Positions 4,020-63,700 of a DNA stretch of 64,000 nt are shown piece after piece. Where the stretch lies: positions 124,001-188,000 of the forward strand of contig MDYQ01000111.1 in assembly GCA_003024175.1 (NCBI GenBank), read 5' to 3'. The notes below the pieces were generated by a model. That model ran no database searches, was not told the origin of the DNA, and saw nothing but the letters and a program-made list of their open reading frames with translations. The position numbers and the translations under genes were made by a program. The first letter of the stretch is position 1; every line of letters begins with the position of its first letter. The DNA comes from Planoprotostelium fungivorum. Lineage: Eukaryota > Evosea > Variosea > Cavosteliida > Cavosteliaceae.

Positions 4020-5941
4020 TTAAACCGTCACGACGGGAGAGCTCCTCGTGTTGTTGCCCTCGTTATGTTGTGATCTCACTTCCAATAGTGGTAAGACTGT
4101 CTCTGTCAGTCACTCATGTACCATGTGATGTGATGACGACTTCACCTTTCGGTTGAAACATCTCTGGATGCAGTACTTGGTGCAATCTCACAGACAGCTC
4201 TTGATTCTCTTGTAACAGTACAGCCACCTGTCATATTATCGTCGGTTTTAGGGTTTAAGATCGTACAGATCTGAGATAGAAGGTGCGTCGAGAATGGATC
4301 TCACCTTCTCGCCTGCAGACTTGAGTTGTTGCATGAGCTGTGTCTTCTGCTTGCTCAAATTCTCAATGGTCGCCCACTGTTGGTTCATCTTCTGCTCATA
4401 TTCTCCCTTCTCTTCTGCACTCACCGGTGTTCCATCCAACTACAACGAGCCGTCACCACCGATTTTCGTCGAATTTTCACTCACCCCCGTCGTTGTAGAT
4501 TCAATCTCTACCACTGGCTCGTTTTTCGTCAGACTTCTCAGCGTTTGTATTTCTAATTTTAGAGCTTCGTTCTGTGCCCTGAGGTCTCTGATGTTCTGCA
4601 TGGCTTCGATGTTGACCATCTCTTCCATCAACTCTTCTTCTTGCTCTTCCTTCTGCCGGATCAATTCGAGCTTGCCTTCTAACCTGGAGATGACTTTCTT
4701 CTGTTGTTCGAGCTGAGAGGGTGAGCGATTGTAGATGGAAGATTCGAAGAAAATCACCTGCTCTCGCAGCGATTCGATGGTTTCCCCGTTGTCACTGGAT
4801 GAGTTTGAAGCTGGTTCGACTGGCGTCGCATGAGATCTAAATTTAGCTTCTAACATGACTCACTAGGTAGGGTGGGAGAGGCTATTTTTGTCTGTACAGG
4901 TGATTCCACGCTCTTCGCAGCGATCTTAGATTCTTCCGTCTCGTCCGTTGTCGACGTCGACACTTGAGGAATTTTCGGTGAATTTCGAAGGGCGGGAGAT
5001 TTTTCTGCGGCTGCGACCGGAGATTTGTCTTTCGATTTTTCCGGCTCTTCGTATTGGAGGGGTGCAGGTGCACTGGTGGTGGATCTGCTCGATGAGATGA
5101 GACACGAAGAGTGATGAGATGAGACACGAAGAGTGATGAGATGAGACACGAAGAGTGATGAGAGCTCACGTGTCGACGGTCCTCCCTTCTCTCTTCTGCC
5201 TTCGGGCCTCTAACGCTTCTAATCTCATCCTCGCTTCTTCTTCTCTCTCTTTGGCCCTCTGTTTCTCGGGCGTGTTGATCTTTGGAGATCAGATGATGGA
5301 GATCAGATGATGGGAATCAGATGGATGTGTCATTACCTCTTGTGATTTATCTGTGGTTCGAATGGGTGTCGTGGGTGCTTTGATGAGAGAGGGATTTGAC
5401 AACTGTGCGGTCATTTTAGACGTTACATGGGCATGACTCAGCAAAAAGTTGGAAGATAGAGACAGATTGTTGTCAAGAGTTTCGACTTTTGATCGTCTTG
5501 ATAGAAGATTCGTGCGTATATTGGAACGATGATATTGATGATTGATTGGAATGGATCGACCAGCACCTTGCTTGGTGTCGGTTTTGGAATGGATTTCACA
5601 GTCTCTCTCGTCGCTTTGACTGCAGTCTTCTGCGTCGAATTCCCATTCGTTCCATTTTTCGAATCGGTCTCATCTGATCCTTTCGCCGATATATTGGTCT
5701 TCTTTACGTCTATCATTAGGATTTCAGCCACAGTAAACACCGGAGAGCGAGTTGCATATGGCATGGCGGGAAATGATGGCCCGATACACCCACCTTCAGA
5801 TGGTTGAGACTTGATCTCTGTTGGAGCTGGTGTCTCTTGCTTCGTCGCTGTGGGGGTCGCAGCCTTCGCCCTTCTCTTCTCTTCCATGATCTTCTTTCCA
5901 GCGGCAACAAGCTCTTCTCGGCTTCGACCAGAATCAGCCAT
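4020..5941 (-). CDS. Coiled-coil protein with golgin-like N-terminus
   Basis: The start was chosen at MADSGRSREELVAAGKKI because this resembles the N-terminal helix of golgins and USO1-like tethers (an EELxxAKKKLxE pattern); an upstream in-frame Met adds an unlikely Arg/Ser leader. A Ser/Pro/Thr-rich, charged middle (about 5800-4870) leads to a heptad-type coiled coil rich in Glu, Gln and Lys (about 4850-4150). The last exons give VLLQENQELSVRL and a tail ending VVTV at the stop (4020-4022). One intron ends at 4440 with the CGTTGTAG word as its 3' splice site. Another (about 5085-5168) is swollen by a tandem repeat. The Golgi tether role is a guess; the coiled coil is seen directly. Confidence 0.65.
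5091..5162. repeat. Intronic minisatellite, 22-base unit, three copies plus a part
   Basis: Three perfect head-to-tail copies of a 22-base unit start at 5091, 5113 and 5135, followed by the first six bases of a fourth. The unit begins GATGAGATGAGACACG. The array lies wholly inside an intron of the coiled-coil gene on the minus strand and explains why that intron is about twice the usual length. Confidence 0.9.
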
Positions 5942-6141
5942 GGCTCGTGTGTTCGATCTCTGCCTCGAATAGCCCGATGATGGTCGAACTCTCATTATTG
6001 ATTACGATCTACAACGGATATAACGGCGAATCCCATTTTTTGGTATTATCGCACTTTTGTGAGACATGAGAAGATTCAAGTCAACCTTCAACTACCCTCA
6101 CCGTTCATCGCCTTCTATGTATGAAACCATTCTCGATCCTT

Positions 6142-9100: not shown

Positions 9101-12100
9101 TTTCCTCCTTCAGTCTATGAATTTCGTCGAGATTTCCCTGCTTCTCTTGCGTCAAGTAGTTGTTGAGGTCGATCGCAGCGTCTCGATCTACAACGGCCGC
9201 ATCTCTCTGTCGTGATATCTCCTCTAGATGTCTAGATAGGACCTCTATGTCGGCCGACAGCTTCCTCTTCTCTTCTTCTGTCTTCTCCCTCTCTTCCTTG
9301 TACTCTTCTGTCTTCCTCTTGACGTCGTGCAGGGTTGCCTCTCTGTCACTGGCTAGCTCTCGTAATTCTCCCGATAATTCCTCCTTGGACCGTTGTAGAT
9401 CGTCATGGTCTCGTTGTAGGTCATCATGGTCTCGTTGTAGATCGTCATATTGACGTTGTAGGTCGTCGTACTGTCGTTGTAGATCGTCATATTGGCGTTG
9501 TAGATCCTCCAATTCTGCCGATCTCTCCAAATTCTCTTCTACCTCTACGCCCCTTTCAGAGTTGGCCGTCACTTCTCTCAGATGTTGTAACTCTTCTTCC
9601 ATCTTCCTCTCCGTCTCCTCTCTCTCTACTTGTCTCTTGTCCATCTCCTTCCTCGATGCCTCCAACTCTCTCGTCAAAGATCGAATCTTCTCCTCTGCTT
9701 CTTCTCTCTCTTTGTCGTAGTTTTCACGTAGATTTCGATGATCGTTCGTGACTTGTTCCAGCTGTCGTGACAATTGATCCCTCTCCTCTTCCAATCTCTC
9801 CTTCTCTCGCAAGAATTCCTCTCTATCTCTCTCGTTGGCGAGTTGTAGATCCTCCGAATTTTCACGGGAAACTCCGTCGCTCTGCGCCCTCTCTTGCAGC
9901 AACTGATCCTTGTCTCGTTGTAGATCGTCCCTCTCGTTCATCAATCGCTCGATGTCTTCTTCTAAGCTTCCGGCCTCCTGTGTGGCCTTGACAAACTGTT
10001 CGATTAATTCTTCGTTCTTCAAGGTGAGCTCCTCCACTTCTCTCTTCAAAGATTCCACATCGAACTCTCCTTCACTTCCGTCTTGCGATTCTTGGCGGGT
10101 GGTAGATCGATCCGCGGCGAGTTGTAGATCGCTCATCTCCCTTTGGATCTCTTGGATCTGTACGTCTCTCTCTTCCAGCTCGTGTGTCATTCGGAGGATC
10201 TGGGCGGCATTTCTCTCGCTCTGCTCTTTGTAGTTTGTGCCTTCTCTCAGTAATTTGTCCTTCAGCGTCTCGTACTGTTTGATCTCGAGGGATAATCTTC
10301 TGTTCTCCTCCACCAACTCTGTGTTCTGAGAACAAGTCAGATGAACGTCCGTGCTCATCATGTTGATCGACGTTCGATGATGATGGTGTCGATGTGATGG
10401 ATGTCGATGATCATCACCTGTGGAGAGATGTTCGATGTCGAGCTGATGAGTCCGTCCAACTCTTTCATCAGGGTCCTCCTGTTCTTCTCCGCTGTCGCAA
10501 TGTCCTCTCGAATTTTCGACGAGATTTCGACGTCTTCGTGAAGGGCCAACTCTCTCAAAGTGGATATGCTCTGATGAGAGTTACGTAGGGTTACGATTGT
10601 AGATGGATAAACTCGTACCTGTTGGATCAATTCTGTGAAATCCTCATACGTTGGAATGGAGAAATTTCCAGTAGATTCTGTCATCTTGGGAGAGTTGATG
10701 TTGTTCAGATGGATGGTGATCTACAACGAGCCATAAATACAAAAATATGAAAGAATTACGTCGCACCTCTTTCATCGATCGGCTGAGGTGATTCATTTTG
10801 TGCTCTCTCTCTGTCCTCAGATTGCGCAATTTATCGTTGGGTACAACTGCTCGACGTCAATTCATGAATTTCTAAAAACCATTGTAGATTGTACGATAAA
10901 AGTGGGTTTCAAGGTTTACCTTCTCTCTCTCCATCATCAAGAGTCTCCTTCGTCTCCTCCTCCCTGATCTTCTCAGAACAAACTGTTTCATGCGAATGCG
11001 ACACCAACCTGCGTTGCTCCAGCTGTCTCTTGAGCATTTCCGTTTCTCTCTCATTCTCGGCTCGTTGTAGTTGTCCGACTTGGTTCAGTCTATCGATTTC
11101 TCTCCTGAGAGATTCCTCATTCGACTTGATCTCGTTCATCTCCTCGCTCATGCGTCTCGATTTCTCTTCACACATCTACCTCCGTTATTTGTGAAATCTA
11201 GTCGAAATTTCACCTGGATATGTACGTTCTTCGAACGAATCTGCTCCTCGAGTGATGATGTCATGGCATCATGCTCCGATGATGGATCACGATCGTCATC
11301 GTGATGATCTCTCAGACGTTCCATCTCTTCAAGCAACACCTTCTTCTCTTCGTTCAATCTGAATTTCTCCTCTCTGGCCATCTCTTTCATCTAAAGAATG
11401 TCATCATGCATCCATCATCATGATGATGTCACCTGATCGAGAGAGCGTAAGAGGTCCTCCTTCTCTTGGTTCACAATGTCCAACTGTTGCTGCAAGCTGC
11501 TGACTTGTTCGTTATCTGTGGATTCCACGGAAATTTCGGGTATCTCCCTCTCCTTCTCTTCCAGCTGTCGTGATGTTATCAAAATGTCGCGTTGTAGATG
11601 GATAATCTCACCATGACCTTCAGATCTTCCACTTGTTGCTCGAACATGGAGGACTTGATCGTTTCGTTCAGATAATTTTCCTCGTATTCGTCTCTGTCTC
11701 GTTGTAGTTGCTCATCGAATTCTTCCCTGGCACGTTGTAGATCCTCGTCAAATTTTTCTCTGGCTCGTTGTAGTTCCTCCTCCAGTTCGCTGATTCTCTG
11801 ATCGATGTCGTGCGTAATCTGTAATTTCATCAGGAGATCGAGTGAGTAGGAAAACCCACGGAAATGTCGTGAGTGGAGGATTGTATTTCTTCTCTGTCCT
11901 TGCTTCTCTCTTCCTCTAACTCTTTCATCAGTTGATTGTTCGTCGAGATTTCGTCTGATAGCTTCTTCTCTAACTCAGCGATGAGCTGTTGCTTCTCATC
12001 ATTATTCTGTTATACTTCAGTCACTTTCGTTCATTCTTGAAATTTGATCCACGTCTGATCGTCACACATAAATCACAGTTAACCAGTCTTTCATAAAGAT

Positions 12101-15436: not shown

Positions 15437-15487
15437 AATGTACACTATGTGAATCTCTTCGAAAACTATAATACATATTTATTTCTA

Positions 15488-18026
15488 TCATTCGACAGAC
15501 TTCTGTTCGAGGAACTCCTCAACACTGCTGAGTGCGCCGTATCTAGTTTCTCCATCGTTTGTAAGCTGTCTCTCTTCCATCTCTTCTGTATCGTAAGCCT
15601 TGGTATGGATGGGTGCTCCATCAGATAGCCAGTTGCAGATCTGAAAGAAATCGGGCCTGTCATCCGGTGACGCCATCCACACTCCTGCGTGACAGTCAAT
15701 AAAATATTTACAAGGACATTCTCTCACCCTTCATGATAGCCTGTAGTGTGGGCGTAGTATCTGCCGGTATAGTCAACCTGTTTCATCACATCAGCCGATC
15801 GATAGATATGACGTGCATCCTCTACCTCTGATCGCCGATGACGTTGATGGCAACTTCTACCATGGGCACATCAGCCCATGGCTCTTTGCATGTCAAGATC
15901 TCCCAGATCACCACACCGAAAGAGAACGCTGAGTCAACGTCAGTTGAATGCCATTGATAGCAGGATGGATGAGTCACCATCAGATTTGGTGCTGTACTCT
16001 CGCTTTGAGATGGCTTCAGGTGACATCCACTTCACAGGTCCGATGTTACTGGCAGTTGTCGATGCACTGTCTTTCGTCTGCACCTGTCTGGACATGCCAA
16101 AGTCGCTCACTTTCGCCTCTAGATGCTTACTGTGCTCAATCAGTCGATATTTGATGTCATTACGGTATGATACACAAATGATTCGAAGCTTACGAGAGTA
16201 GAATGTTTCTGGCAGCGAGGTCTCTGTGTATGATCTGTTTCACATCAGTCGATGTGTGGCGATGGATGCTGGATGATGGCGTTACCTTCTCTTGATGTAG
16301 ATGCAGCACTCCTTTGGCTATTCCCAGAATGATGCCGTCCTTCTTCTCTTGTGTCACATCATCTCCGTGTGTGCTGAGATAGTCCAGCAGACATCCTCCC
16401 TCACAGAATTGATTGTACCCCAACACTAGAAACTGGAACAGAATTCAGCGATATCACGCGAAACAGAACGTATCACCGTCATGTGTTTCAAACTTTTGAT
16501 GTCAGGAGATATGACACCGGTGAATCGATTATTACTCATGAAGAGTAGCTCAAGATTTGTGCATCGATAGATCGATGGAGGAATTTCTCCAGTGAAGCTG
16601 TGATCTCTCAATTACGACGGCTCTGACTCGACTCACTTGTTGGCGTAGACAGAGATGTCGACTAAACTCGTCATCTGATCCCACGTGTCCTATCATTCGT
16701 CAGAGTCTCTTCAAGAGAATGACGGATCACCGGAAGCTCTCCGTTCATGTTGTTTCCAGACACGTAGAAATAGAATAAACTCTTCATCTGACCGATAGAC
16801 GGAGGTATAGTACCGGTCAGAAGATTATTCGTCATGGTCAACGAGAAAAGATCGGGCAGAGTGATCGTCCACTCGGGGAACTCGCCCGTGAAAGAATTCG
16901 AATCTAACAAGATCCACTGTAGAGCTGGATGAGGTGAGATGGGGGGGGTGAAGAAGGATCACCAGTGCAACGGCTGAGATCAGGAATAGGTCCGTAGAAT
17001 TTGTTGCCGGCCATAGCAAAGTCGATCAACTGTGCACGTGTTCATGGGACGTACGGCGGATGATTTACCTTCGGAAGGTTCAATGTACCAATCATTTGGG
17101 AGAGGTTTCCACCGAAGTTGTTGTGTCCGATTTCGATGTACTCTAATTCCACCATGTCATCTGGCGATCATCAATCCCGAGGCGATGAGCACGAGCTCTC
17201 ACTCAGTCGAGTCAGATTTATGGATGTGAAGCTGTTTGCCCACAGACCGAGAACTTTGAGATGGATCAACTTCATCCAAGAGTCCTGAGCGAACGTCAGA
17301 GGAACGTGTGAAACACCATCGTCATCACCGGTACAGGACCGTAGAGTCCACCGCCGCGGTCTGCGCCGACCGAGAAGTAAGTGAGGTTGACCAAGTTGCC
17401 CAGATCGTCAGGCAGAGTGCCCACAAAGTAATGATTGTAGAAGTCGATGTACTCCAAACGTGTCTTTGTGACCCAGTCAGGGAAGGGCCCTGTAAGATAA
17501 TTGGGAGGAAAGATAGTGCTGTCGAATAGATAGGTATTGAAGTAACCACTTCCACCACCAAGATCGAGAACGGTGAGATCTGGGAGCGGATGAGATGATC
17601 ACTCGATGCGTTACATATGGCGATGCGGGTGAGCGAAGGACTCACGAGAGAGGTCAGACAGATCGGGCAGTTGACCCGTGAGGTTGTTATCTGCCGCATC
17701 GGATGAGATGGTTACCCACAAGTCAACTGGATCTCAGTCACGTGTCCCTCTCCGTCGCAAGTGATGCCAAAGTAACTGTATGATGGTGAGGGGGATGAAC
17801 TGCGGTGGGATCGATAAACACCTGCAATAATTGGCGGTAGAATTATCCCACTGGGTGTTGTTTATCCAATGTTCACCTTCGCATCTCCATCAGTTTTTTT
17901 TGTCTCTCCTGTTTTCACTCACCTCCCATATCGTCAAACAGGAGTCGGAGGGCATCCGATTCTGCCTGGAACAGAGCGGCTGCTGTTGTACATAAAATGA
18001 GGAGGACAAAGAAGAGAGTGGTTCTC
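15488..18026 (-). CDS. Deleted LRR receptor kinase: ectodomain fused to kinase C-lobe
   Basis: A signal peptide (MRTTLFFVLLILCTTAAALF) starts at 18026. LRR exons follow (for example SFTGEIPPSIYRCTNLELLF, near 16570) down to about 16440. There the frame passes from an LRR (FLVLGYNQF) straight into the kinase hinge (CEGGCLLDYLS) at about 16410. The C-lobe is complete: HRDLAARNILL, AKVSDFGMSR, WMSPEA and a C-terminal tail, stop at 15488. Compared with the paralogue at 21011-26884, the remaining LRRs, the membrane helix and the kinase N-lobe with Gly-loop and VAVK are absent. The protein would be secreted and unable to bind ATP normally. It may be a pseudogene or a decoy; no stop interrupts the joined frame that I could see. 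Confidence 0.75.
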
Positions 18027-18055
18027 ATCGCGTCTCTGGTGTCTGTGATAAGTGA

Positions 18056-18135
18056 GGAGATGCTGTGCACCATGTTTGTATGACACAAAGAAGAGCGGGA
18101 TCTCGTCGTATGACACACATGTTGTCGGCGATGCT
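18056..18135 (-). promoter_or_regulatory. Upstream repeat block of the deleted LRR kinase gene
   Basis: Two copies of GTATGACACA lie 30-110 bases upstream of the start codon, separated by AAGAAGAGCGGGATCTCGTC. The same block with three copies is found upstream of the paralogue at 26884, so it is either a shared promoter element or simply part of the duplicated unit. Confidence 0.45.
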
Positions 18136-20788: not shown

Positions 20789-21010
20789 GTCTACAGAAAT
20801 CTCTGTACAGGGTAGAGAGGGTTGAGGGTAGTCTACCGTCTTGGATCGTCAACGATGATCATGATATTCGATCCATCGGTAGAGAAGGTGAGAGGGTGGT
20901 GCGTCGTGATCATTTCATTGAAGGTCACCAGGTGATATAATTCCGTGAGGGTTCACAATGACGGTATATGAATCGAAGACATTTGAAGCAACGATCGATC
21001 TTCATTTCTC

Positions 21011-24000
21011 TCATTCGACAGGTTTCTGCGCGAGGAAGTCGGCAACAGTGCCGAGTGCATCGTATCTGGTCTCTCCATCGTTTGTAAGCACTCTCTGTTC
21101 TATCTCTTCTGTATCGTACGCCTTGGTATGGATGGGTGCTCCATCAGACAGCCAGTTGCAGATCTGAAAGAAATCGGGCCTGTCATCCGGTGACGCCATC
21201 CACACTCCTGCGTGACAGTCAATAAAATATTTACAAGGACATTCTCTCACCCTTCATGATAGCCTGTAGTGTGGGCGTAGTATCTGCCGGTATAGTCAAC
21301 CTGTTTCATCACATCAGCCGATCGATAGATATGACGTGCATCCTCTACCTCTGATCGCCGATGACGTTGATGGCAACTTCTACCATGGGCACATCAGCCC
21401 ATGGCTCTTTGCATGTCAAGATCTCCCAGATCACCACACCGAAAGAGAACGCTGAGTGGACGTCAGCCCACGTTCATCACATCGAATGAAGGGGGTTTAC
21501 CGTCCGACTTGGGGCTGTACTCTCTCTTTGTGATCGCCTCAGGTGACATCCACTTCACAGGTCCGATGTTACTGGCAGTTGTCGATGCACTGTCTTTCGT
21601 CTGCACCTGTCTGGACATGCCAAAGTCGCTCACTTTGGCCTCGAGATGTTTACTGTGCACAGTCAGTCTATATTTATTCGATGTGATGACGGTATGAGTA
21701 CATATTATGTGATTCAAAGCTTACGAGAGGAGAATGTTTCTGGCAGCGAGGTCTCTGTGTATGATCTGTTTCACATCAGTCGATGTGGTGATGGACGATG
21801 GGTGATGACATCACCTTCTCTTGATGTAGATGCAGCACTCCTTTGGCTATTCCCAGAATGATGCCGTCCTTCTTCTCTTGTGTCACATCATCTCCGTGTG
21901 TGCTGAGATAGTCCAGCAGACATCCTCCCTCACAGAATTCTCTTCCGCGTATTTCAGTCGATCGCATCTACGCCGTCGATCTCACGTGACGATAGACAGT
22001 GGATCGGGCGGAAAGGTATATCCCATGAACAGCACTACGTTCTGCATATCATCAGTCTCTTTCTCACATCCTCCTTTTCTCACTGGATGAGGCCTCATGC
22101 TCTGTACTAATGTCGCCTCGTCCTATCATCTGTCAGTTTGTCCGTATTCCATCAGATGATCACCAAGAAGCTCTGCATCTGATCTGTGTTGATGTGTTCG
22201 CTTCGGACCTGTCGCTCATCAATACGCCATAATGTCATCCTCTCACCTGCTTGACAGCTACCGTGTTGCTTCTCCAGCTGGCCTTGTAGACAACTCCATA
22301 TGCTCCTGATCCTATCATCACTTGTTCTTCTAGCTCGCTGAAAGGGATCTGATTCGTGTCAATCGATGTGATATGAGATGAGTTTGTGGATGACTCACCA
22401 CACTCTTTAGTGTGGCGTTGTTGTTGATCTGCGTGAAGTCTACCAACTCGAAATTTGCCTCACGGACGCGTCTCTTTCTGGTCAATAAGAGGACGATGAC
22501 TAAGATGAAGACGCAGAAGATGATACAAGCGATGACAATGCCAGCGATGGCTCCTGTGAGGTATGAGGCAAAAGAACAACGATTGGGCATGCATAAGATG
22601 ATAAGAATGGCAATTCACCGGTAGAGAGTCCGGTAGAAGCAGTAGTCGCATCGGGCATGATTGAGTCAGACACGCTCAGCACAGTGATGTTCATCGAACT
22701 GTATGCTGACGATCCCACTTGATTGAGATAGGACACAACTCTCGATGACGACCCTTCGCTTGATCCTTCTGCCGTGGCGTCAGACTCATCTGAATACATT
22801 GGAGGTAAAGATGGCATCACCAGCAGGAGGAGAGAAAGACAGATCAGCGATCACACTGCCTACTCTTGTTCTTGTGACTTTGATTCTGTCTCTGCTAATG
22901 CCTGCGATGGTAGCCACAGACTGAATGAAAGATGCAGAATCGAAGGATGAGACGTTTCCTTCCCTCTTCAGCTCGTCATTCGATGACTCATCTGTCACCT
23001 GCTACTCTGATGCTCATCTCAGCCGATCGATAGTTGTCTACTTGACATCTGGCTTGACACAGACGTGCTGACTGAGCTGGCAGAGGGCATACAAAGGTCT
23101 GATGAGTCAGATCGCAGAAAGAGAGAGAAGGGACGTTGACCATCATCATGGCATCAGTCAAAGTGTTGTAAGAGAGATCTAAAGCAGACAGAGAGGTGCA
23201 GCCGGTCAAATCAGGTACAGATCCGTTGAGCTGATTGTGACTGAATATTTTAATTTTATATCGTTAAAGGGACATCACCTTGCATCGAGATATTGTAGAT
23301 TGAACAAGCCTGCATCGATTTATGAGACAACAACATCGATTTATATCAATCACCTGACAGAGAAGGGACGGATGTAATCATGTTATGGCTAATATCTACA
23401 GAAGCCAGCCCTCTCATTCCATTCAGCGTCTTGATCTTTCCGCTGAATGCATTTCCTGTCGCTCTCTCAGTCCCCTCCATCGACAAGACAAAATGATGAT
23501 CACCGCTGAGGTTGAGATGAGTGAGAGAAGAGAGCGTGTCTAAGAAGCTGAGCAGTCCACTCAGGTCATTGCTGGTACAGTCAATCGTCGAGATCATGAC
23601 AAGATGGTCACCTGGACAGATCGATGATCTGTGGATCTGATTTCAATGGATATGGCATTTGTCCAGACAATCGATTGTGAGATAGAGACAGCACTCTCAG
23701 GTTAGTCTGCTTTGCTGACACAGTCTCAGCATCAACGATGCGAATGGCGATCTTACCGAGACCAGCTGGTATCGATCCCATAAGATTGTTATGCGACTTG
23801 TATCCATGTCAATCGATGACGCAGTAGATGATCACTCACAAGATCGATCATCTGTAGTCCTGTTGATCCACTGATGTCTGGAATGTTTCCGTTCAGATTG
23901 TTGCCAGAGACGTTCAGCGATATCAGATTAGGTAAGCTGAAGACGTCTTGCAGTCCTCCCGTCAGTAGATTGTTTCCCAGCGATAGGGTTGTCAACGAGC

Positions 24001-26884: not shown

Positions 26885-26940
26885 TGCGCCTCCGATATCT
26901 GTGATAGGTGAAGAGAAGCTGTGCGCTATGTTGGCGGGAT

Positions 26941-30459: not shown

Positions 30460-33062
30460 TTATGCGGGAAGCTCTATCTTTTGTTCTGACTTGGACTCTG
30501 ACTTCTCCGTCTTCGGATCAGAGACGAGGATGAGACTGGCTGGTGATACAAATGGTTTCTGGAGAGTCTTTCGGTAGTGGACGATGAGGGAATACAGATC
30601 TGTGTATGACTTGCCATTCTCATCGGATGCTAACTGCCAGCCCTTGCTATCTCGCTTGATGAGACTGTTCTTGATCTGAATCGTTTCGTTAGAACGGTTG
30701 AACGGAGATCATGTGATGTGATATGGTGGAACATCGAAGATGTTTTGTATGACTCACCCTTCCTTCCACAACCCACGTAACGGCAAAACTGGTTGATTCT
30801 ATGACGGTTCGGATCAAAAAGGTCTCTGCAAGATGTTCAGATCTCAAACATCATTGCATCATCGCCCTCACTGTCTGGCTGGCCCAACAGACTATCGGCT
30901 GCCTCCTGCAGAGAGATATCACCCCAAAACCAGGACTCAAAGGGAATCGTCGTCAACAGGGAATTCTTAAAGATGTCTCTGCTCATCCATCAGATCATGC
31001 GATGTCAAATGACTCTGGTCACCCGTTAGAACGTATGGCTTCCGTGATGTTCGTGTATCTCTTCTCCTTGCCATGGCTGTCCGTCACTGTCCTCCTTCAG
31101 TCTCTCATCATCATCGCATGCGTCTCACAGATGACTCCGTCCATGGTAGACGAGACGAAGAACTGACAAAACCTCTTCTTACTGTCCGTGTAATTGATCT
31201 CCATCGCTCCAGGAGTCGTCTGCCCCTATCAATATCCATCTACACCGTTGTAGTCTGACGTCCCACCTTCGAGATACGGCAGAGGAAAGTGCCGGGCCAA
31301 GTGTCTGCCAGTAGGAGAGCAGCTTCGTTCTTTGACAAGTAACCGTAGAACCACTTGCATTGGAACATGCCCTTCACCTGATCCATCGTTCAGCTCGCAT
31401 TCCACGGTAAGAGACGTCGACGGATACGGTACTTGACGTGAGATCACCTGTTCGACGCAGTTGCCGTTGGAAGTGCGAATGGGGCCGAAAAAATGCAAAA
31501 AACTCTCGAAAACGGTTCGATTTACAACGTCCAGGTTACTGTTATCTGACGTGGGGTCAGTCTTGATGTCACCATTCTACATCGTTGTAGATCGACTCTT
31601 GCTCACCCAACAAAAATTTGAGAATGGACTCGATATCAGGGCGAATGGTGATGTTCAAAAATTCAGCCAACGAGTGAACGAACGATTTCCAATTGATGTA
31701 CAGCTGCGTCAGCCGCGTCAGCTCGATCTACAACGTTGTAGACGGTCACCTGAGTTCCAAAGTATAACTTCCAAAATCCGATGGAGGACGCCGAGGTGGG
31801 TGAATAGAGAGGAGAGTCGTTCGAGTCTTCTGACTCATCATTCAACGTCTGATACTTGCGATATGCATTCAAGTTGTACGACGTGATCTTCATTCTATAG
31901 GTAGAGCGATACGTGTTCAACACCGAAGCCAAGACACCTGTTTCGAGTCGGTTCCCGCCCGAAAAGAAGGTTCAAAATTCGAATTCTCACCGGAAGATTG
32001 GAGGTTGTCGACGAACATGTGATAGTCTCGAATTGCGAGTCTCAAATCTTTGAGCAAGTGATCGGGAACGCCTTCGAAAGTCAGTTTAAAATCCTATTTT
32101 ATTCTTTTATTCTCGATGTGTCTCACCTGCTTTCAGCCTCTCGAGCATGTCTAAACCGTTGTAGACGCTCGTCATCGCCACGGTGTATTCCTCCGAGCAG
32201 TCTGCGTCTGCCTCTCTCAACATCTTTGCAGTGATTAGCGAGATGTCTTACGCTAACAAACACGCTCACCTTCAAGATTCGATTGCATTTCTCCTTGCAC
32301 TGCAATAGATCGACCTGTGTTCACATCAGAGATGATGACAAGATGGAATGCATACCTCATGTTGCGTGGTCAGTCTCTCTACCTCTGGTAAGCTCTTTCG
32401 CGATCCTCTCAGTATCTTCAAGATGCTGAGACCTTGATCGGTTCCTGAGCCCGATGAAGATCGATGGGTGATCTCTTTTCCGTATGCGGCAGTCTCTCTA
32501 TAGTCTTTCTCTTTCAGAGCCTGCTTGTAAAGTTCCTCTGTCACGGATTCAGGGGAGATGAAGACATCTCGTGAGACTCACCGATATACTGTCTATATTC
32601 TACGCTTTTGATGAATTTTGGAAACGAATCCATGGTCAGAAGGTTCAGGACAGCAGCGGAAACTTCGTTGAAGGCATCACTCTTGAGGTTTTCCGCATCG
32701 AGGATCCTGGCACTCATTGATTTTCTCGTTTCAGAATCTACATTGACTTGGGTTTCTGCGTCTGAGGAAATGAAGGTGTCATAGATGAGCTTGGCTCTTT
32801 TTCCTCTTTCCTCGGTTGTCATCTCTCCCGCTGCAGATTGAAATGAGATCAGCTCTCTATAGCAGTCGAGGTTTTCCACTGAGAAGGTCCTCCTCAAGAA
32901 TATTACGAATAGATCGTAGAGCTCCTCCAATCGTATCAGGACCCTCTTATCATTACATAAAACCGAAGTAGTCCGCCCGCTGACATCTCCCAAGATCTCA
33001 TCCAATCTCGGTGGATTATCCAATGTCAGCTGCGGCGGTGAAGCTGTCTCCGGCTGGGGCAT
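30460..33062 (-). CDS. RGS domain + Cbl-like TKB module + tandem SH2
   Basis: Exon 1 (33062-32580) starts MPQPETASPPQ and holds an RGS domain: LYDLFVIFLRRTFSVENLDC, then DSFPKFIKSVEYRQYI at its end. A helical part follows (VDLLQCKEKCNRIL; EEYTVAMTSVYNGLDMLERL; 32310-31670), then FWKLYFGTQ ... NWKSFVHSLAEFL and VFESFLHFFGPI, which match the FW-x-x-x-FG, WKSF and VFEFDIFTRLF landmarks of the Cbl TKB region (four-helix bundle, EF-hand, SH2). The first SH2 follows directly (WFYGYLSKNEAALLL, PGTFLCRIS, about 31370-31250) and a second one ends the protein (WFWGDISLQEAADSLL, KTFLIRTV, about 30930-30540). Both have the pTyr-binding Arg. No RING is seen. Expected roles: G-alpha GTPase activation and phosphotyrosine binding. 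Several introns carry the CTACAACG palindrome. Confidence 0.75.
31727..31742. repeat. Perfect 16-base intronic palindrome
   Basis: TCTACAACGTTGTAGA in an intron of the RGS/SH2 gene, directly behind its 5' splice site. Imperfect relatives with AC or AT at the centre lie at 31237-31253, 31576-31591, 49182-49201 and 61686-61703. Confidence 0.95.
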
Positions 33063-42313: not shown

Positions 42314-44323
42314 ATGGTGAGTATGATTCTGTATTCGAACCTAATCTCATGCAGTTTGGACAACCTGCAGCTGGTAATCTACATCCTTTGTGAATATTGT
42401 TAGAATATCTCATTAACTTCTCCCAGCACCATCCTTCGGTGGATTCGGTAATACTAATACGCCATCGACTCCAGGTGATGTTATATCCGTAATAGAAATC
42501 CATCACCTTCGCGATTGCATCTGTATACAGATGTACATTCTGTGTATACATCATTTCGACTTTGGCTTCCCATCCTCCCATCTTAAATATCTGATCCGTG
42601 GATTCACATTTCAATCACACCATCATCAATTCTCGACCCTTCGAACATCCACCCATCGATCGTCGAATGACAATGATCCACAGCTTTCGGCGCTTCACCC
42701 TTTGGCGCACCCGCCAGCACACCTGCCTTCGGCGCACCTGCTAGCACACCTGCCTTCGGTGCACCTGCCAGCACACCCGCCTTCGGTGCACCTTCCACCG
42801 GTTTCGGCGCCAGCACATCTACCTTCCCCTCTTTCGGTGCACCTGCTGCCAGTACACCTGCCTTCGGTGCTGCCAGCACACCTGCTTTCGGTGGCGCCAG
42901 TACACCTGCCTTTGGTGCTGCCAGCACACCTGCCTTCGGTGCTGCCAGCACACCTGCCTTCGGTGGCGCCAGTACACCTGCCTTTGGTGGCGCCAGTACA
43001 CCTGCCTTCGGTGCTGCCAGTACACCTGCCTTCGGTGGCGCCAGCACACCACCGTTCGGTGCATCGACTGGAGGCTTCTCTGGATTCGGTGCATCCACAC
43101 CAAGCTTCGGCTCCCCCTTTGGCGCCACGCCCGCCGCGAATAATCTACCACAGGCACCCTCCACACGTGATTACCATTACGATGTCACGGACGATATCAC
43201 ATCGACACCGGCTGATCGTTACAGCGTTGGGTGCTAACGCGGGATACGGTCAAGCTCAGTCCTTTGTGATCACACCTCAACATAGAGTCAATGCCATCCA
43301 AGAAGCTTACAATACGAACAGTCCAAACTGCAGGTTCCGGTACATGCTGTACAATGAAGTCAATCCGTCTGACGTGAGCGTTTTGGCGGGAGATTTGAAT
43401 TTTAAATTGGGCAGGTGGCGTCGTTTCGTAAACCGGACAATGTGAGTCAGAAGGCGTGGAATGATGCCATAGAAAATAATCCGGACCCCACGCGGTGAGT
43501 TACATCTACAACGAGCCAAACCTGACCTCCCCCAGCCTCGTTCCCGTGCAAGCCAACGGTTTCACTGAATTACAAGAGAGAATGGAGGGACAACAGAAGA
43601 GGGCAGAAAGACACAAGACCATATTGAACAATATCAGCCAACAGGTCACATTTTTTCCTACATTTTTCTCACGTTTTTCTCAGAAGTTTCGTGGAATTCT
43701 TCTGACGTTCACCAGGTGACAGACATGCAGAGGACACACACTCTTAGAACTCTCGGTAGAATCGAAGAATACAAACACGCTCACATGCTCATGGCTCAAC
43801 GCATCCTCAACCTCGTCAAGAGGATGGAGGTGATCCACCATCTACAACGTTGTAGATGCAGTCACGTGACCTCCGACAGACCATCCGATGGCAGGGACTA
43901 CCACTTCCTGATGGGCCGGAAGTTGCATTCTTTAACCGAGTGTGGGAGGCAGAGCAGTATCTCGTTCAACCAGACTCTATTCGAGGAAAACTGAGCGAGG
44001 TGATTTTATTCTATTTTATTTCTACGATCATCACGATGTCCATCACGATGTCCATCACGATGACTGATGATGGGGACAGTTGGCGGCGCTCAGTTATCAA
44101 GAGGACGACGGTATCATCGCGGAGGAGTACAGAATCGAAGAGTCGGAGTTGAGGAAGGTCCACGAGGTGATGGATGAGACACGTGATGTCCATTCTCATC
44201 TTGATGCAGTTTCTGTTGCAACAGGCCGAAGGGATCTCGAAGATGATGAAGGCCGTCGAGCAGTTGAACTCGGACACACAGATCAAATTGGAGGGAATCC
44301 AACAAATGAAGAGAGACTATTGA
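42314..44323 (+). CDS. NUP54: Nucleoporin Nup54 (FG-Nup of the central channel)
   Basis: Exon 1 contributes only the start codon (42314-42316), followed by an intron from 42317; exon 2 begins FGQPAA. An FG domain with many AFGAASTP and AFGGASTP repeats (about 42685-43075) is followed by the conserved helical region: [51 protein letters not shown] and the C-terminal coiled coil [20 protein letters not shown]. This order and the VPV-x-A-x-GF-x-x-L-x-x-R signature identify Nup54, partner of Nup62 and Nup58. The introns near 43494 and 43832 carry the CTACAACG word; the latter has a perfect 20-base palindrome. Confidence 0.88.
42685..43075 (+). repeat. 24-base tandem repeat encoding FG repeats
   Basis: About a dozen units of GCCTTCGGTG(C/G)(T/C)GCCAG(C/T)ACACCT, each encoding AFG(A/G)ASTP, with slight drift at both ends. 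Near-identity at the DNA level in the centre points to recent expansion or homogenisation. Confidence 0.85.
43839..43858. repeat. Perfect 20-base intronic palindrome
   Basis: CATCTACAACGTTGTAGATG equals its own reverse complement. It lies 8 bases after the 5' splice site of a Nup54 intron and is the fullest palindromic form of the recurring intronic word. Confidence 0.95.
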
Positions 44324-44505: not shown

Positions 44506-45401
44506 TTAGAGGGCGAGAGGAGCAGCCTTTCCCTTCATCGACTCGCTTTGGACGATGACCTTCTCTCTTGTGATCTCTCTCATGGGTAGCTCTTCACGGA
44601 TGAGAACGGCGGCCTCGACGATCTTCTCGTAGATGGGCTTCGTCTCTTGGATGAGAGTGGGTACGACGGTGTCCTTCTCCAATACAGGTTGCACCTCTTC
44701 GATGACTGTCTTCTTGATGCTGCACAGCGTGTCAGAGGATTTCATTAGAGAAGATGAAGAATGACTCACACTTCGTTGACGATGGGAGCGTGCATCTCAA
44801 CCGATCGGAGGGTGGCATCGACATCGACCGATGGAAGGACGACGTTCTCTGGGATGGGAGCTGCCTTCTCCACAACGACCTCTCTGACTTCAGGGGCCAA
44901 GTCTCTCTTCTCGATCAGGGTGGGCTGGATCTCGGTCTCATGCAGTCTCTCTGTGATCTGCTTGACTTCCATCTGCTCGCGTTCCCTGAAGATGACGGGT
45001 TGGATTTCCTCCTTCTCTACCGGATGGATGTGTTCGTGCACCACGACGTCCTGATGACTGTCGGCTCGTTGTAGATGAAGAATCTATGTCACCTTCTCCA
45101 CGTGCTTGATGTTGAGAGGCTCTACAGTGGTGGTGGCTACAGCAGGCTCGACGATTTCGACTTTCTTGACTTCGACGGGTACTAGTACTTCCTTCTTCGT
45201 CAGAAGCTCATCGTGCACCTCTTGTCTCTGCACGAGCTCGGCGGCAGGCACGGGCTGTGTCATGACGGGCTCGGATGTGGGCAGTCTCTCAGGCTCTCTG
45301 TGACGGTGGAGGAGACCTCCCAGTGTGTGATGATGTGTGGTGTTGCTGTCAGTCGTGTTGGTTTGGTTGGTGTGGTGGATGATGTTCTTGATCTTCTGCA
45401 T
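44506..45401 (-). CDS. Hydrophilic repeat protein (IQPxIxxE-type), unknown
   Basis: Start MQKIKNIIHHTNQTNTTDSN at 45401; an early His-rich stretch (THHHTLGGLLHRH) precedes three exons full of degenerate repeats with a core like V-x-P-x-I-x-x-E (EIQPTLIEKRDLAPEVREVV; EEVQPVLEKDTVVPTLIQE). Nearly all charged and aliphatic with no Cys. Such proteins occur in fungi and protists as abundant, probably stress-related hydrophilic proteins; I cannot name the family. The intron near 45055-45090 (35 bases) is mostly CATCTACAACGAGCC in the sense direction. Confidence 0.6.
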
Positions 45402-46736: not shown

Positions 46737-51504
<4,768 letters not shown>

Positions 51505-56822: not shown

Positions 56823-56986
56823 ATTCGATATGTATCGATCTCTCTTTCTTCAGATGATGATCGACGATGTGTGACTGCTATGCTTGAACGTGTCTCACTG
56901 GTCGATTTCTATTTCAGCAGTGAAAGAAAGATCACCGTTCTGGGCATAGGCTGGTCTGATGGTAGAAGAACAAGCCGATTTAATTC

Positions 56987-58157: not shown

Positions 58158-60098
58158 TACAGAGAGGCCAAGAAGCAACCCAGAACGACCACTCCAAAGA
58201 CCAACCTGATCGACTCCGTCAGCATCATCTCACTCTTCATCATCCAAAATCTCACTTGTCTCCGGCGTTCGGTGCGGTCGTGATGATTCCACTGTTGGAC
58301 GTAGATGCTTCAGTTTGGGAGGTAGAGAATGTCGCTTCTACTGTGTCTGAGCTTCCAGAAACCGAATCGGAATCGGAGACGGACGTCGCGGTGACCACTG
58401 GGTTGGAGCTCGTTGTAGACGAAGTCTCCTGGGTAGTTGTAGATGTAGTATCCTGGCTCGTTGTAGACGAAGTGTCTTGGCTGGTGGAAGAAGCGATAGA
58501 AGTCTGCGTACTCTGCGTAACTTCGGTCTCTTGCGTAGTCTCCGTATCTTGAGTAGTCTCCGAATCTTCTGTGCTCGATGTGCTTTGACTCGTTGTAGAT
58601 GAAGGGGAGGACGACAGAGATCGGTAAGCCTGGTGGATGTAACTGGGGAGGGTGACCGAATTGGCCAGAGTGTGGATGTGTACACCCGCCAATTGATGAG
58701 AAGCAAAGAAGGCGATCTGTGATGGATGAGAATGGCGATGACGATGATGGCGAATCACCTTGTTGTAGATGGTCACGTTGTTCTCCCAGCCGATCCAGTT
58801 GTCTCCTGGAGAGATTGAATATGGAAAGCGTTGGATGATGTCATGTGATGTTCACCTTGAAGGAGGTAGAATTGGTCTTGTGAGGTAGAATACACTCCAG
58901 TAGCTCCATCCGCTTCCAAAGAATCCAACTGCATCATCGTCAACACGATCGAGATGACATGTGATATGGTGCATCACCTCTCTCTGAGACAGTTGACCCT
59001 CTCCAAACTGAGTACTGAGGCATCCAGAAGGATTCAACTGGGCCACTGGAGAGCCCACGTCTGTAAGACTCGAATTGGCGAGCTGGTATGTGATGCCGGT
59101 ACCAGGGATGCCGACGACGATCTGATTAGAGGATGAGCGACGAGGAGACGCCTTCTCATCGACACACCTTCTGACTGGGGATCAATTGGACGAGCTCTTG
59201 GATGGTCCATTGCAATGATGAGAGGGGGGAGAGAGCGGATGTTCCGACCGTCTGGACCGTCCAGCTTCCGAAAAAGGAGATACTGTCCAAGATCATGTAA
59301 TCGACTGTGTCCGAATGAGATGTGATGCATCATACGATACACGAACCGATATTGGCCGTTTGGGTGTAGTTCAAAGTCTGGTACCAGTCACTGCGAACGG
59401 ATGTCCAGAAGAAGAGTTCCAAGGGCTCACTCTGGGCGGCGATGGCCGCTCGAACTGCGGTGGCGAGGCTCAGTGCTTTCGGCTGTGGAACATGATGAGT
59501 CCAGAGGTTGTGATGTTCGAGTCTATCTCACTCCATCGTCTTGACTCCATGTCCAGTGGATCTCAACACCCTTCATGCCATATTGGAGGGCGTATTGGAT
59601 GAGACCGGAAGCAAAGGAGCTAGTCTTTGTGGCGTTCTCATACAGAGTGTCCTGCAGATCAGTGCTGGTGAGGGAGGAGATCTACAGAAGATGGTGAGTC
59701 CGCGATATGGAGACGACTCCATCGAGGTGACTCACCACGAGCTTTGTGGTGGCATTCTGTTGGGTGATATCGTTGAGCATACCAGGATATTGCCAGGCTG
59801 TGGCGCGTCAACATCATTAGACAATACATCAGACTCACCATCCCCCTCTGGAAAGGTGTCCGAGGCAGTGTCATACGCGGCATTCTGGATGATGATGTGT
59901 GTGTACTGCGTGTAATCGATCTGAAGAGTCCCCTTAGTATCCACACTGCATGATGCTGGTGCTACTCACGGTGTCTGGGCTGACCGCACACAGACCACCC
60001 GAATAACGGAACCAATTCTGGTAGTAGGCCACGCTCAGGGGGGTACCAACGGTCGCCGCCAGGAGGCTCAAGAGAACGATGAGGGTCTGGACCTGCAT
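58158..60098 (-). CDS. GH18-like (chitinase-like) surface protein lacking catalytic residues
   Basis: Start MQVQTLIVLLSLLAATVG is a signal peptide, followed by SVAYYQNWFRYSG and IDYTQYTHIIIQNAAYD, the first strands of a GH18 barrel. Further landmarks: YALQYGMKGVEIHWTWSQ at the active-site strand (about 59550-59610), ISFFGSW, KIVVGIPGTGITYQL and, at the last strand, FFASHQLAGVHIHTL. The GH18 motif DGxDxDxE reads KGVEIHWT, so the catalytic Glu and Asp residues are replaced and the protein is more likely a lectin than an enzyme. A Ser/Thr-rich stalk (58620-58270) follows. The frame stops at 58252, but a hydrophobic tail (SIRLVFGVVVLGCFLASL, stop 58158) lies just behind and would make a GPI-type signal if a very short intron is removed. 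Confidence 0.7.
58270..58620 (-). repeat. Ser/Thr-rich stalk of low complexity
   Basis: Repeats such as TTSQDTTSTT and TEDSETTQDTETTQ, probably heavily O-glycosylated. At DNA level several copies contain CTACAACG or CTACAACT. Confidence 0.8.
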
Positions 60099-60700
60099 GC
60101 TGCCTCGGAAGAAATGGAAGGCTTCTCAAGATATCTAGAGCTCACCTTAGGTGATCCGACTCGGTCTAAGCGTGAGTCGGAGAAGTCTTAACGCGGTGGT
60201 CCTATGGCCTCACCTTTCAGGGAGAAGAGTCGCTGACGCCAACACGACAGTGGATGACAAGCGGAGAGACGACAGACTTGTCTCTGTACTCAGCATAACC
60301 GCGATAATTTTCCGTCGCTGATGAGGGAGCAGATGGCGATATCAACAAGAGGGAACAAAGTCTTCTTGTAGCTAGCTGCATTCGTGGATTGTTCTCTCTT
60401 GTGTGAATCAGATGCGATCCGATGAACGGAGCGTCGAGTGAAGGTGTCGTCGAAGATAGACTGGTGACGAGCGTGGCCACATCGAGAGCCGCTGTGGCTA
60501 TTAGTCTCGGCTTGATAAATTGAAAATCGATTTTATTTGAGGTTGATTTTTCAGCGCAAATCGGGTAGAGGAGCGGGATCTCGACACCATTGACAAAGAT
60601 CTCGTCTTTGCTGTAGAGCTCAATTGTAAATTAGTATACTGCCACGGCCTCGTCTCATCCTAAACCGTCAAACTAGTGATTCAGGAACAGACATCGTATC
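60099..60700. other. Divergent intergenic region
   Basis: It separates the GH18-like gene (-) and the SH2/VPS9 gene (+). A small hairpin (CCGACTC at 60156, GAGTCGG at 60174) lies near the GH18-like start. A minus-strand frame (60217-60480) has no ATG at its head, no recognised domain and no splice support. Confidence 0.4.
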
Positions 60701-63700
60701 ATGGAGGGTAAGTGACTTTCTTGCGAAGTCTAGACCTCCATTCGATCTCTGATCCTCGGTCGTCATCTTCTCAACTTTTGATTCATTTAATGCAGATTGG
60801 TTTCGTCCAACTATCAGTCGCGTCCAAGCGGAGGTAATGATTTTCTCTTCACACAATCGTTTGCACAAAGACTCACGATACATAGAACCTTCTGGCCAAT
60901 TTAGAAGTCGGAATGTTTGTCGTCCGTGGTTCCTCACAGCCCGATAGCTACGCTCTATCCTATGTGGACAGCAGCACCGATGTAGTGCATTCCCTGATCA
61001 ACAAGACGCCATCTGGTTTCATTTTGCCCGACATACCAGCCGCTGTATTTCCAACTTTAGAGGCTCTCGTCTCCGCTTGTAACTTTCTTATGCAAATTCC
61101 AAAGAAGAAGACGCTTCCTCATCAACAGCCCGCCTCCCCAGCTCCACCCAATGTCAATAACTACGCAGATCCATACCCTGCCATTGCAGCAGCAGTTGCT
61201 GGCGCCAGCACCACATCACCGACCAACATCCAATCACCCAATGTTCAATTATCAAATGTTCAAACACCCACACCATCCAACAACGCTCAAACACCCAACC
61301 TCCCTATCATCCAATCTCCCAAACCTTCGAGTGTCCAATCATCCAAGACCTCCAATGTCCAATCACCCGAAACCGTATCACACGATTCATCCATCGCCAT
61401 CATCTCGGAGGCGTTTACCGACAGAAGCGCAGCGGAGATCAAAGAAGCATTGAAGGCATCTCAATATGACGTTACCGCCGCCATCGATCTCTTGGTGAGT
61501 CCACGCGTCGGACTCATCGTCATTACCTCTTCTTCCCTTCTCATCATCTCCTGCCTTCTCATCTCGTTATCTCTTGTATGATCTCATCATCTCATCATCT
61601 CATTTGCATCAGCTGCGCACGCCCGCAGAGCCCAAGAAGATCGTCGAAGAGGCCCCCCGTGTCTCTCAGAAAATCGAGTGAGTCCGTCTACATCGTTGTA
61701 GATTGACTCATTTCCCCAGATCTCCACGATCCATTCCCGAGGAACAACCCAAGGAGAGGAAATCGTGAGAGAGTGGAAATTTCGCGGGAAATTCACGAAA
61801 ACAGGTTCAACGTGGTCAACGTCTTCCTACAGCACATCAAGACGAACGTAAAATACTCACCCGAAGTAAGATATCTCACTTGACACACATTTCACTGAAA
61901 TTTCTCAGTACATCGACGAGAACTGGGCCAGGCTGCCCAAAATTTTGGACCAGTCGAACGTCCCTGGTTCCCTGGAGAGTAACCTCCACAAGATCCTCCA
62001 GTACGTCGAATTTCCTCCGAAATTTCTCACCGTTCCAGGAACACAGACCACCCGTTGGGTTTGAAGATGGATGCCTTCATCAACAACTACAACATGACCA
62101 TCACCGTACCCTCTTACGGTGCAAGCAGAGCTCTCGCCGAGGCATCCAATTTCGTCACTTCCCTACAGAACATCATCTCGTCCAAGGTAACGACCATCTA
62201 CAACGCTTCATTGAAATGAAACAGGTGGAATCGTTCAGAAGTCCACTCGGTAGCCAGGTCGCCTGGAGGGTTATCGTTTCCGTCTTGTTGCCCAGAGTAT
62301 ACGAAAACCTCTTCCACATAGTTACGTCGGAATTCGCTGCGGTGAATTCCGATCGACTCCACAAGATGAAGCAGCTGGTCAATTGTGAACCCGCGGTCTT
62401 TCTCGGTATGGTTCGTTGTAGATGACCGGAAAATAACGGAAAATAGGGAGGTCGACGCCGGTGTCGAAGGCTCAGTTGGAGGAGGTCGCGAAGCGATTCG
62501 CGGAAATCAGTCGAACGATTCCGGTGCACAATCGATTGAGCCTCTTAGTTGAGATCGTGCAGGCCATCTCTGATCTGGCCCAACCAGCCGTAACGTGAGT
62601 TTTCATCTGATTTTCGTCGACATACATACTGACCCCTCATCCAGGAACGCCGATAGCCTCTTGTGCTATTTCTCCGCCGTGCTGTGTTATTCCGGATTAA
62701 ATTCTCCGATGGCCCACGCTCTCATCACTCGAACTTTCTCTCCTCCATTCGTCATCGAAGGCCTCGAAGGTGAGAAATTTCCGCGAAAGAGAACCGAAAT
62801 ATCGACGAATCTTCAGGTTTCGCCTTGACCGTGTTTGAGACTTCACTGGATTACGTGCACTCCAATTCTCAGGCCATTCTACCCGAAGTCACCTTCCGGT
62901 AATCACCCCAACTCGTACGTACGTAACCTGAAATCTCCCAGAAACGTCCGCGCTCCTTCCCTGGGTGTTCCCAGGTCGGCCGACGGCAGCCCCATCGTCT
63001 TGTCTTCCACGCGAAATCCCACGGTAAATCCGGCCAATTACTTATCGGTACGTATGGTAGCCAACCACTTGACGTCCTCCGACCCACAGCAATTGGCCCA
63101 GCAGTATCCTTACATCAGGAAGGAGACGAGGACAGAAGAGCCCCCGAAGGAAATCAAACCAGGTGAGGCTCGTTGTAGACGATCGGATGATGACGTCATC
63201 AGTCGAAGAGCCTCCGGTCGTACAGCCGGAGCCGAATTTTTCCGGTTACGGAAATCTCGATGATGTCTTTGCGGGAAGGGAGCAGGAGAAATCGCAGGCG
63301 CAGAATCCAGCTCCCGTGAGAGCGACTGCCACATTACCCTCCTTGAGTCCGAGCGTTCCCAGGAATCACGTGGTCAGTTCTCCGAATCTTCCCAGGATGC
63401 CCACGGCTCCCGCACCTTCTCCACCAGTCCCCGCCAGTGAGAGACCTGAGATTTCCGAGAAAGTTCTGACGTAGACTAGATGCCTCTTGGAGGGAACAGG
63501 CGAAGGTGTCTCCCTCGACTTCGACAGAAAAGGTCAATTTCCAATCTACAACGAGCCCCGTACCAGCCACTACGTCTGCTGCGAGCACTCCGAAGCAGCC
63601 TTTGAACCTGTACGGCTCGTTCTCTAGCTTGGAAGCTTCTCTCGCTACTCCTTCTTCCCCTTCTAAAAATAGCCCCAGCGAAACACCCACTCCGACACTT

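Follow-up and report, generated by a model that had tools for sequence, protein, structure and literature searches.

In this study, the eight-base word CTACAACG, which recurs in both orientations, was analysed in a 64,000-nucleotide stretch of DNA from Planoprotostelium fungivorum (the window; positions 124001–188000 of contig MDYQ01000111.1, C47) and across the assembly of 36,859,091 bases in 471 contigs. The citrate synthase of the genome points to Amoebozoa: among the best 120 of 8000 matches, the first was a EukProt protein at 92% identity, and the first named hits included Balamuthia (71%) and dictyostelids (about 70%). A search with an RGS-domain exon gave no match. The over-representation of the word was confirmed as real and genome-wide. 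With modest confidence, the word can be explained as the recognition site of a protein with a regulatory role inside genes. Seen directly were the copy number, the sharp core and the fixed spacings of the word, the neutral orientation of its internal copies, its occurrence in old introns that are no longer for it, its clustering by gene and its excess in coding sequence. Judged from these patterns, protein binding, a dimeric state of the protein and a regulatory role are each probable.

Abundance of the Word

The window contained 49 copies of CTACAACG, 18 forward and 31 reverse, where a preliminary description of the same DNA had counted about forty by eye. The expectation was between 1.2 (order-2 Markov model of the window) and 3.3 (order 3), and the reversed word was absent. 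Those positions of the earlier count that were compared agreed to within about 10 bases. The longer word CTACAACGAGCC was counted 11 times, and CATCTACAACGAGCC 4 times.

Genome-wide, CTACAACG occurred 7,188 + 7,183 = 14,371 times, compared with 1,037 + 1,085 = 2,122 for the reversed control. A count near random, which the preliminary description had named as grounds for doubt, was not what was found. The control was far lower for the longer words: CTACAACGAGCC was found 679 + 644 = 1,323 times and its reversed form 2 + 2 = 4 times, and the palindrome CTACAACGTTGTAG at 750 sites and its control at none. With one mismatch allowed, the palindrome had 1,728 sites and the control 19. A whole-word full-text literature search did not find CTACAACG, CATCTACAAC, CGTTGTAG or TACAACGTTGTA, though words inside longer printed sequences would escape it; a topic-level search over titles and the starts of abstracts found nothing on the word.

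Anatomy of the Site

The continuous sample consisted of the window and positions 1–250,000 of a second contig, C1 (together 314 kb), and was supplemented by 40 short kinase loci. In 186,348 non-coding bp, ATCTACAACG had 59 copies (reversed, 0) and GTCTACAACG 16, and each single substitution at the eight inner positions of the word had 0–5. The core of the word is sharp, with a purine at the edge.

Two fixed arrangements were found in the 314 kb and the kinase loci. The inverted repeat TCTACA-N4-TGTAGA occurred 26 times at a gap of 4 and never at gaps of 0–3 or 5–12; its centre was ACGT in 11 of the 26, and 12 of 13 one-mismatch palindromes deviated only next to the centre. At N4 spacing the TCTACA arm was counted 20 times and the next arm sequence 4 times, and the only similar inverted repeat was TGATGA-N2-TCATCA (11). 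The second arrangement, CTACAAC-N2-GYCA, occurred 45 times, compared with 1–4 at seven other spacings tried. A sharp core, graded edges and fixed half-site spacing were therefore all present, as in a transcription-factor binding site.

Distribution in Introns, Exons and Gene Flanks

Genes were predicted with a small hidden Markov model. Every CTACAAC/GTTGTAG copy was masked in training, so the motif could not drive the gene models. The masked models gave 432 introns in the sample and the unmasked models 470, with a length mode of 40–41 nt; the acceptors of the 470 were CAG (344), TAG (63), AAG (40) and GAG (21). Alignment of EukProt protein P0121 over C1:201,400-203,700 recovered nine introns, and two of these, of 41 and 45 nt, contained the word. 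Protein-guided introns of a tyrosine-kinase family also carried it, and by reading, the PI3K-domain gene of the window agreed with the intron models. The gene finder under-predicts genes, so part of the DNA classed as elsewhere is unannotated gene.

In the 314 kb under the masked models, introns held 49 copies of CTACAACG (167 per 100 kb), exons 55 (43 per 100 kb) and the remaining DNA 52 (33 per 100 kb). For RTCTACAAC, introns had 49 copies (175 per 100 kb) and exons 54 (45 per 100 kb). Same-strand gaps had 20 (66 per 100 kb), divergent gaps 2 within 10.8 kb (18.5 per 100 kb), convergent gaps 1 (17) and long unannotated stretches 30 (25). Divergent and convergent gaps together had 3 matches in 16.6 kb. 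The reversed word gave 3.6 in introns, 2.5 in exons, 6.6 in same-strand gaps, 0 in divergent and convergent gaps and 0.8 in unannotated stretches. Some introns were probably missed in the same-strand gaps. The other ground for doubt named beforehand, an intergenic density equal to that of introns, was not found (introns 175; gaps 18.5 and 17), though some copies do lie between genes.

Gene flanks were also enriched, at about one third of the intron enrichment. There were 21 copies among the 44,098 positions within 400 bp upstream of predicted starts (48 per 100 kb) and 24 among the 38,935 within 400 bp downstream of stops (62 per 100 kb). The 100 bp closest to the starts had 9 in 12,014 (75 per 100 kb, compared with 175 in introns). 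These copies may include missed exons and introns. The flank densities soften the intron preference and leave the odds of the readings unchanged.

By the unmasked models, 18 of the 49 window copies were intronic, 21 exonic and 10 elsewhere. The claim that most copies sit in short introns therefore held by density but not by count. In the 314 kb, the word was the most over-represented word of the roughly 40-nt introns on both strands. In the 452 introns of up to 170 nt used for word statistics, sense-strand CGTTGTAGA was observed 24 times against 0.07 expected (order 2) and TCTACAACG 20 times against 0.08.

The exonic copies at first look resembled ordinary codons (IYN, LQR, STT). Synonymous codons were shuffled 100 times in pieces of interior exons (196 pieces totalling 67 kb; 6 that contained stops were dropped). 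CTACAACG occurred in 15 of the 196 pieces (shuffle mean 4.15, maximum 8) and CGTTGTAG in 5 (mean 0.33, maximum 3). The reversed words GCAACATC (2; mean 1.64) and GATGTTGC (1; mean 1.18) were not in excess. The word is therefore in excess in exons as well, and in each of the three phases, although a few of the pieces may have been mis-called. It is not strictly intronic, and strict intron specificity was dropped.

Clustering by Gene

Copies clustered by gene, with a pair statistic of 154 against 48 expected (p < 0.001). With the copy-poor block C1:1-110,000 excluded, the expectation was 63 (p < 0.001). The PI3K-type gene at 46737–51504 had the word in 8 of 16 introns, and five genes with 8–11 introns had it in none. 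No functional theme common to ten motif-rich genes was found by reading. A predicted gene at C1:143,730-145,910 (minus strand) carried the word in 5 of 12 introns; by reading, its product may be a telomerase reverse transcriptase.

Other words were also unevenly distributed. In motif-free introns, GAAATTTC occurred 10 times in motif-rich genes (85 introns) and not at all in motif-poor genes (154 introns); the counts were 6 and 6 for TGACGTCA, and 4 and 1 for TCACGTGA. TGACGTCA (often GATGACGTCATCAG at the intron end), GAAATTTC and TCACGTGA were denser in introns than in exons (for example at 49169–49214, 51090–51133 and 63163–63202). Three of the frequent palindromes in the window and C1 introns were centred on ACGT.

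One tentative possibility is that the word is a genome word of eukaryotic gene bodies that marks genes or acts at the level of the chromosome, for example in licensing, compartment marking or biased recombination. It would be read in DNA whichever way the transcript runs, and its influence would be strong enough to draw in splice acceptors and to bias the choice of synonymous codons in many genes. It is unlikely that the word is non-regulatory and is kept, in permissive gene positions, by molecular drive or a chromosome-level process such as recombination, repair, segregation or DNA uptake. A sharp 10-mer core, thousands of copies in both orientations, inverted pairs at one spacing, copies in permissive positions including codons, and one sampled region nearly without copies would all suit such a process. 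However, copies cluster by gene even outside the poor region, and gaps and gene flanks are less dense than introns, so a gene-linked role fits better. We know of no such process in amoebozoans.

Orientation and Splice Acceptors

Among internal non-palindromic intron copies, 16 were forward and 19 reverse. This neutrality makes a splicing enhancer unlikely. Acceptor copies have one orientation only, by construction: the reverse word can form an intron end, with CTGACTCGTTGTAG followed by AT in the exon. Outside C1:1-110,000, 15 of the 51 introns followed by AT ended in GTTGTAG, compared with 1 of the 309 others. At intron ends in the sample, the variant CGTTGCAG was absent and CGTTGTAG was found 15 times. 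Genome-wide, the CAG variant TGACTCGTTGCAGAT occurred once and the TAG form TGACTCGTTGTAGAT 553 times. As the CAG variant is nearly absent, the acceptor copies do not reflect selection for a good acceptor as such. On the simplest reading, an existing AG followed by AT supplies four bases free, so that fewer substitutions complete the word.

An intron element acting in RNA, either a special 3′ splice signal (CUGACUCGUUGUAG then AU) or a hairpin of UCUACA-tetraloop-UGUAGA, or both, is improbable. In its favour, the 16 of 360 introns outside C1:1-110,000 that end in GTTGTAG are shorter than the others. The palindrome could also form a hairpin of 6 bp in the stem and 4 nt in the loop, the one spacing at which the inverted pair is found. 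On the other hand, the TAG form outnumbers TGACTCGTTGCAGAT 553 to 1 although CAG acceptors outnumber TAG acceptors 344 to 63. Nor did the internal copies show the strand preference expected of an RNA splicing enhancer. Palindrome flanks were also counted genome-wide: A/A 287, A/G 300 and G/G 31, where independent arms predict 309, 256 and 53. Mismatched flank pairs (300) are thus as common as matched A/T pairs (287); the arm covariation expected of an RNA hairpin was not seen genome-wide, and the tolerance of mismatched arms speaks against stem pairing. No other arm is comparably frequent at N4 spacing, and the coding excess extends to all three phases. Orientation, flank pairs and CAG/TAG counts disfavoured the hairpin and the splice signal alike. 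The suggestion of an intronic splicing enhancer made in the preliminary description is unlikely on the same orientation and acceptor counts and on the exonic excess over synonymous shuffles.

Age of the Introns

The preliminary description also raised the possibility of a tiny intron-creating element. High copy number, palindromic pairs, intron preference and the 19–25 bp that some motif introns have in common around the word would be consistent with an introner or micro-transposon, a mobile element with the word at its ends that created introns or inserted short elements. The reading is nonetheless very improbable.

Intron positions were compared in the tyrosine-kinase family, for which a kinase fragment search of the genome gave 153 matches. 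The comparison covered 22 loci (20 fetched, the C1 copy and the window copy). A phase-0 intron before ISDFG (residue 18) was present in 18 of the 22, one locus (L041) being aligned only from residue 19. This intron carried CGTTGTAG or CTACAACG in 5 of the 18, so old positions are common to paralogs with and without the word. In this family, gain of the intron together with the word was not observed, and the introns are older than the word. The 8-mer was in some spliced-out stretch at 10 of the 22 loci and at 1 of 20 further kinase loci, mostly of another subfamily. In one pair of close paralogs (L030, L035), ATCGTTGTAGAYGGAG was by reading retained while the rest of that intron had diverged. 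The family is large, with matches at C1:183,749-188,673 and on many contigs; by reading, the predicted genes adjoining the C1 copy appear to encode ectodomains of beta-helix (PMP-like) type together with a membrane segment.

Internal copies add no intron length (median 47 nt, n = 46, versus 50 nt, n = 299; p = 0.66). Among the 452 introns, 65 were motif introns with 128 motif–motif matches, and none of the 128 spanned at least 80% of the shorter intron, so the similarity up to near both splice boundaries expected of introners was not found. When the word was masked, the sole matching pair was one locus predicted on both strands. Forward–reverse neighbours within 250 bp (11) were not above reverse–forward neighbours (15), 13 palindromes aside, and inverted pairs beyond the palindromes were not in excess within this distance. 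The 33 self-alignments of 120 bp or more in the sample, of which many came from one coding repeat, contained no CTACAAC/GTTGTAG, and no target-site duplication was visible by eye at the acceptor copies. An introner or other mobile origin was rejected on shared positions, lengths, masked similarity, neighbour orientation and self-alignments.

We give almost no credence to a compositional or annotation artefact of CATC-rich introns and codon bias: CATCATCA is common in introns and exonic IYN, LQR and STT codons yield the word, but CGTTGTAGA stands at 24 against 0.07 in introns, reversed controls of longer words are near zero, and the word exceeds synonymous shuffles and Markov models up to order 3.

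Proposed Role of the Word

A genome-wide protein site was the best supported of the three meanings first proposed. On this reading, a protein that binds DNA sequence-specifically, probably as a dimer, would recognize RTCTACAACG as its half-site, and its sites would lie mainly in gene bodies. The full site would be the inverted TCTACA-N4-TGTAGA, with ACGT as the most frequent centre, or TCTACAAC-NN-GYCA. Sites may arise by point substitution wherever the sequence is free: in the middle of introns of about 40 nt, at acceptors that already read AG then AT, and in permissive synonymous codons. Some genes are rich in copies and others have none, so the site probably serves as intragenic cis-regulatory DNA by which a subset of genes is marked or regulated.

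Several observations weigh against a regulatory protein site. No binding protein or function was identified for the word in this analysis. The GYCA partner is partly not independent, since it overlaps branch points, donors and codons and is to that extent explained by splicing or coding: among 39 cases in the 314 kb, 12 were GTCA antisense in introns, most of them overlapping a branch point or donor, and 13 were GCCA in predicted exons. Three findings also weigh against it: the A/G palindrome flanks above independence (300 versus 256), the shorter length of word-ending introns (median 40.5 versus 50 nt, p = 0.007), and the near absence of the word from introns of C1:1-110,000 (1 of 92, versus 61 of 360 in the rest of the sample). 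Unlike a classical promoter site, the word has no first-intron bias and is less dense in gaps and flanks than in introns; the promoter peak is not strong, with divergent gaps and start flanks above the reversed control and below introns. In the predicted genes of the sample, the word was present in 11 of 112 first introns; for ranks two to six the counts were 5/87, 5/62, 6/47, 6/33 and 3/21, and for the seventh and later 7/47. A first-intron element was thus unsupported. Finally, the gene models are home-made and built without transcripts of the species, and by reading some of the copies placed in exons may instead lie in antisense introns or in wrongly called frames (for example 40842 and C1:155,225).

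The introns of the 110-kb block C1:1-110,000 (L003–L013) are also poor in TGACGTCA and GAAATTTC, and a rich block (L014–L027) adjoins it. Within the poor block, C1:50,001-70,000 (L008–L009) has a lower guanine–cytosine content (0.41, 0.44), almost no predicted exons and no introns.

Individual Sites in the Window

In the PI3K-type kinase gene, the 40-nt intron at 50941..50980 (+) holds the reverse copy CGTTGTAGAC at 50951 and also GATCACGTGATC. The flanking open reading frame (50484–51341) matches Pfam PI3_PI4_kinase, and we take the 14-residue peptide formed on removal of this intron to be a kinase motif. Another intron of the same gene (51090..51133, +, 44 nt) reads GTGAGTC-CATCTACAACG-ATGACGTCATC, its forward copy at 51100 being joined to a TGACGTCA palindrome.

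Other copies lie in predicted introns on the plus strand. Three reverse GTTGTAG occur at 49850..49915 (66 nt), the last of which (CTGACGCGTTGTAG, 49908) is the 3′ splice site, with an exon beginning AT. The intron at 49169..49214 (46 nt) has the near-palindrome GATCTACACCGTTGTAGATG and TGATGACGTCATCAG at its 3′ end. For 49023..49066, with TGACTCGTTGTAGATG at 49044, either the word's own TAG or an AG 15 nt further on may serve as acceptor. A forward copy lies at 48552 in 48539..48657 (119 nt), the perfect palindrome CATCTACAACGTTGTAGATG in 43830..43879 (50 nt; core 43842–43855), and the near-palindrome CGTCTACATCGTTGTAGATTGAC (61694) in 61678..61804. The 40-nt intron at 63163..63202 contains GTGAGGCTCGTTGTAGACG and ends in GATGATGACGTCATCAG. 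At 43495..43535 (+, 41 nt), an intron by reading contains GTGAGTTACATCTACAACGAGCCAAACCTGACCTCCCCCAG; the gene model puts the donor further upstream (43415).

On the minus strand, predicted introns at 45051..45092 (42 nt) and 11565..11611 (47 nt) contain the forward copies CATCTACAACGAGCC and CCATCTACAACGCG (11590), respectively. In the 45-nt intron at 4440..4484 (−), the word forms the 3′ splice site (GGCTCGTTGTAG), here with TT after it instead of AT; the exon upstream has a second, inverted copy at 4491. The perfect palindrome CTACAACGTTGTAG at 31728..31741 is in DNA without a gene model.

Coding repeats held 12 of the 21 exonic window copies. Six were at 21-bp spacing in a coiled-coil repeat (DDLQR; 9391..9503, −), three at 33-bp spacing in another (LQR; 11700..11773, −), and three in a Ser/Thr-rich stretch (58411–58598). 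The window also contains a tandem 24-bp repeat inside a long open frame (42699–43062) and dispersed duplications (15475–18076 versus 20998–21939 and 25247–26932; 91% and 85% identity).

Comparison with Known Systems

In the parts of the literature consulted, intronic cis-regulatory sites are represented by the YY1 sites in the intron of the UbC 5′ untranslated region (PMC3680475) and by plant intron-mediated enhancement (PMC5216049, PMC7411622). As far as these accounts go, the word is similar in being a short intron word with site-like degeneracy that would act on its host gene. It differs in that it has no first-intron bias, occurs in up to half of a gene's introns, and exerts pressure on codons and acceptors as well.

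Bacterial DNA uptake sequences, in the excerpts consulted (PMC2346458, PMC1939737), are likewise short words with hundreds to thousands of copies, also within genes. Compared with these excerpts, the present case differs in its eukaryotic host, tiny introns and gene clustering. Bacterial uptake sequences occur as inverted pairs, as does the word here; we know of no DNA uptake system here. The cyanobacterial HIP1 palindrome is similarly a word iterated genome-wide with an unclear role. Unlike HIP1, the word here is mostly a half-site and is biased to genes and introns.

Introners are described, in the part of the source consulted, as introns alike up to near both splice boundaries (PMC9860276). 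The introns here also have sequence common to many of them. However, measured against that partial description, the similarity here does not extend to both boundaries, and in the one family compared the introns are older than the word.

The bZIP ACGT-core elements include the C-box TGACGTCA, the G-box CACGTG and the T-box AACGTT. The palindrome here is likewise centred on ACGT, as are TGACGTCA and TCACGTGA, both denser in introns here. The ACGT that several enriched palindromes share at their centre is no more than a lead towards bZIP-like factors, and to our knowledge the half-site TCTACAAC with N2-GYCA spacing matches no known bZIP arrangement.

The results warn that a word common to many introns need not mean introners. 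If the word is a protein site, a DNA-level site, a 3′ splice signal and codons would share the same few bases. Thousands of sites in 36.9 Mb, together with multigene paralog families and tiny introns, would provide a natural system for measuring the birth rate of binding sites. The word may also offer a route to finding a heavily used DNA-binding protein in Amoebozoa.

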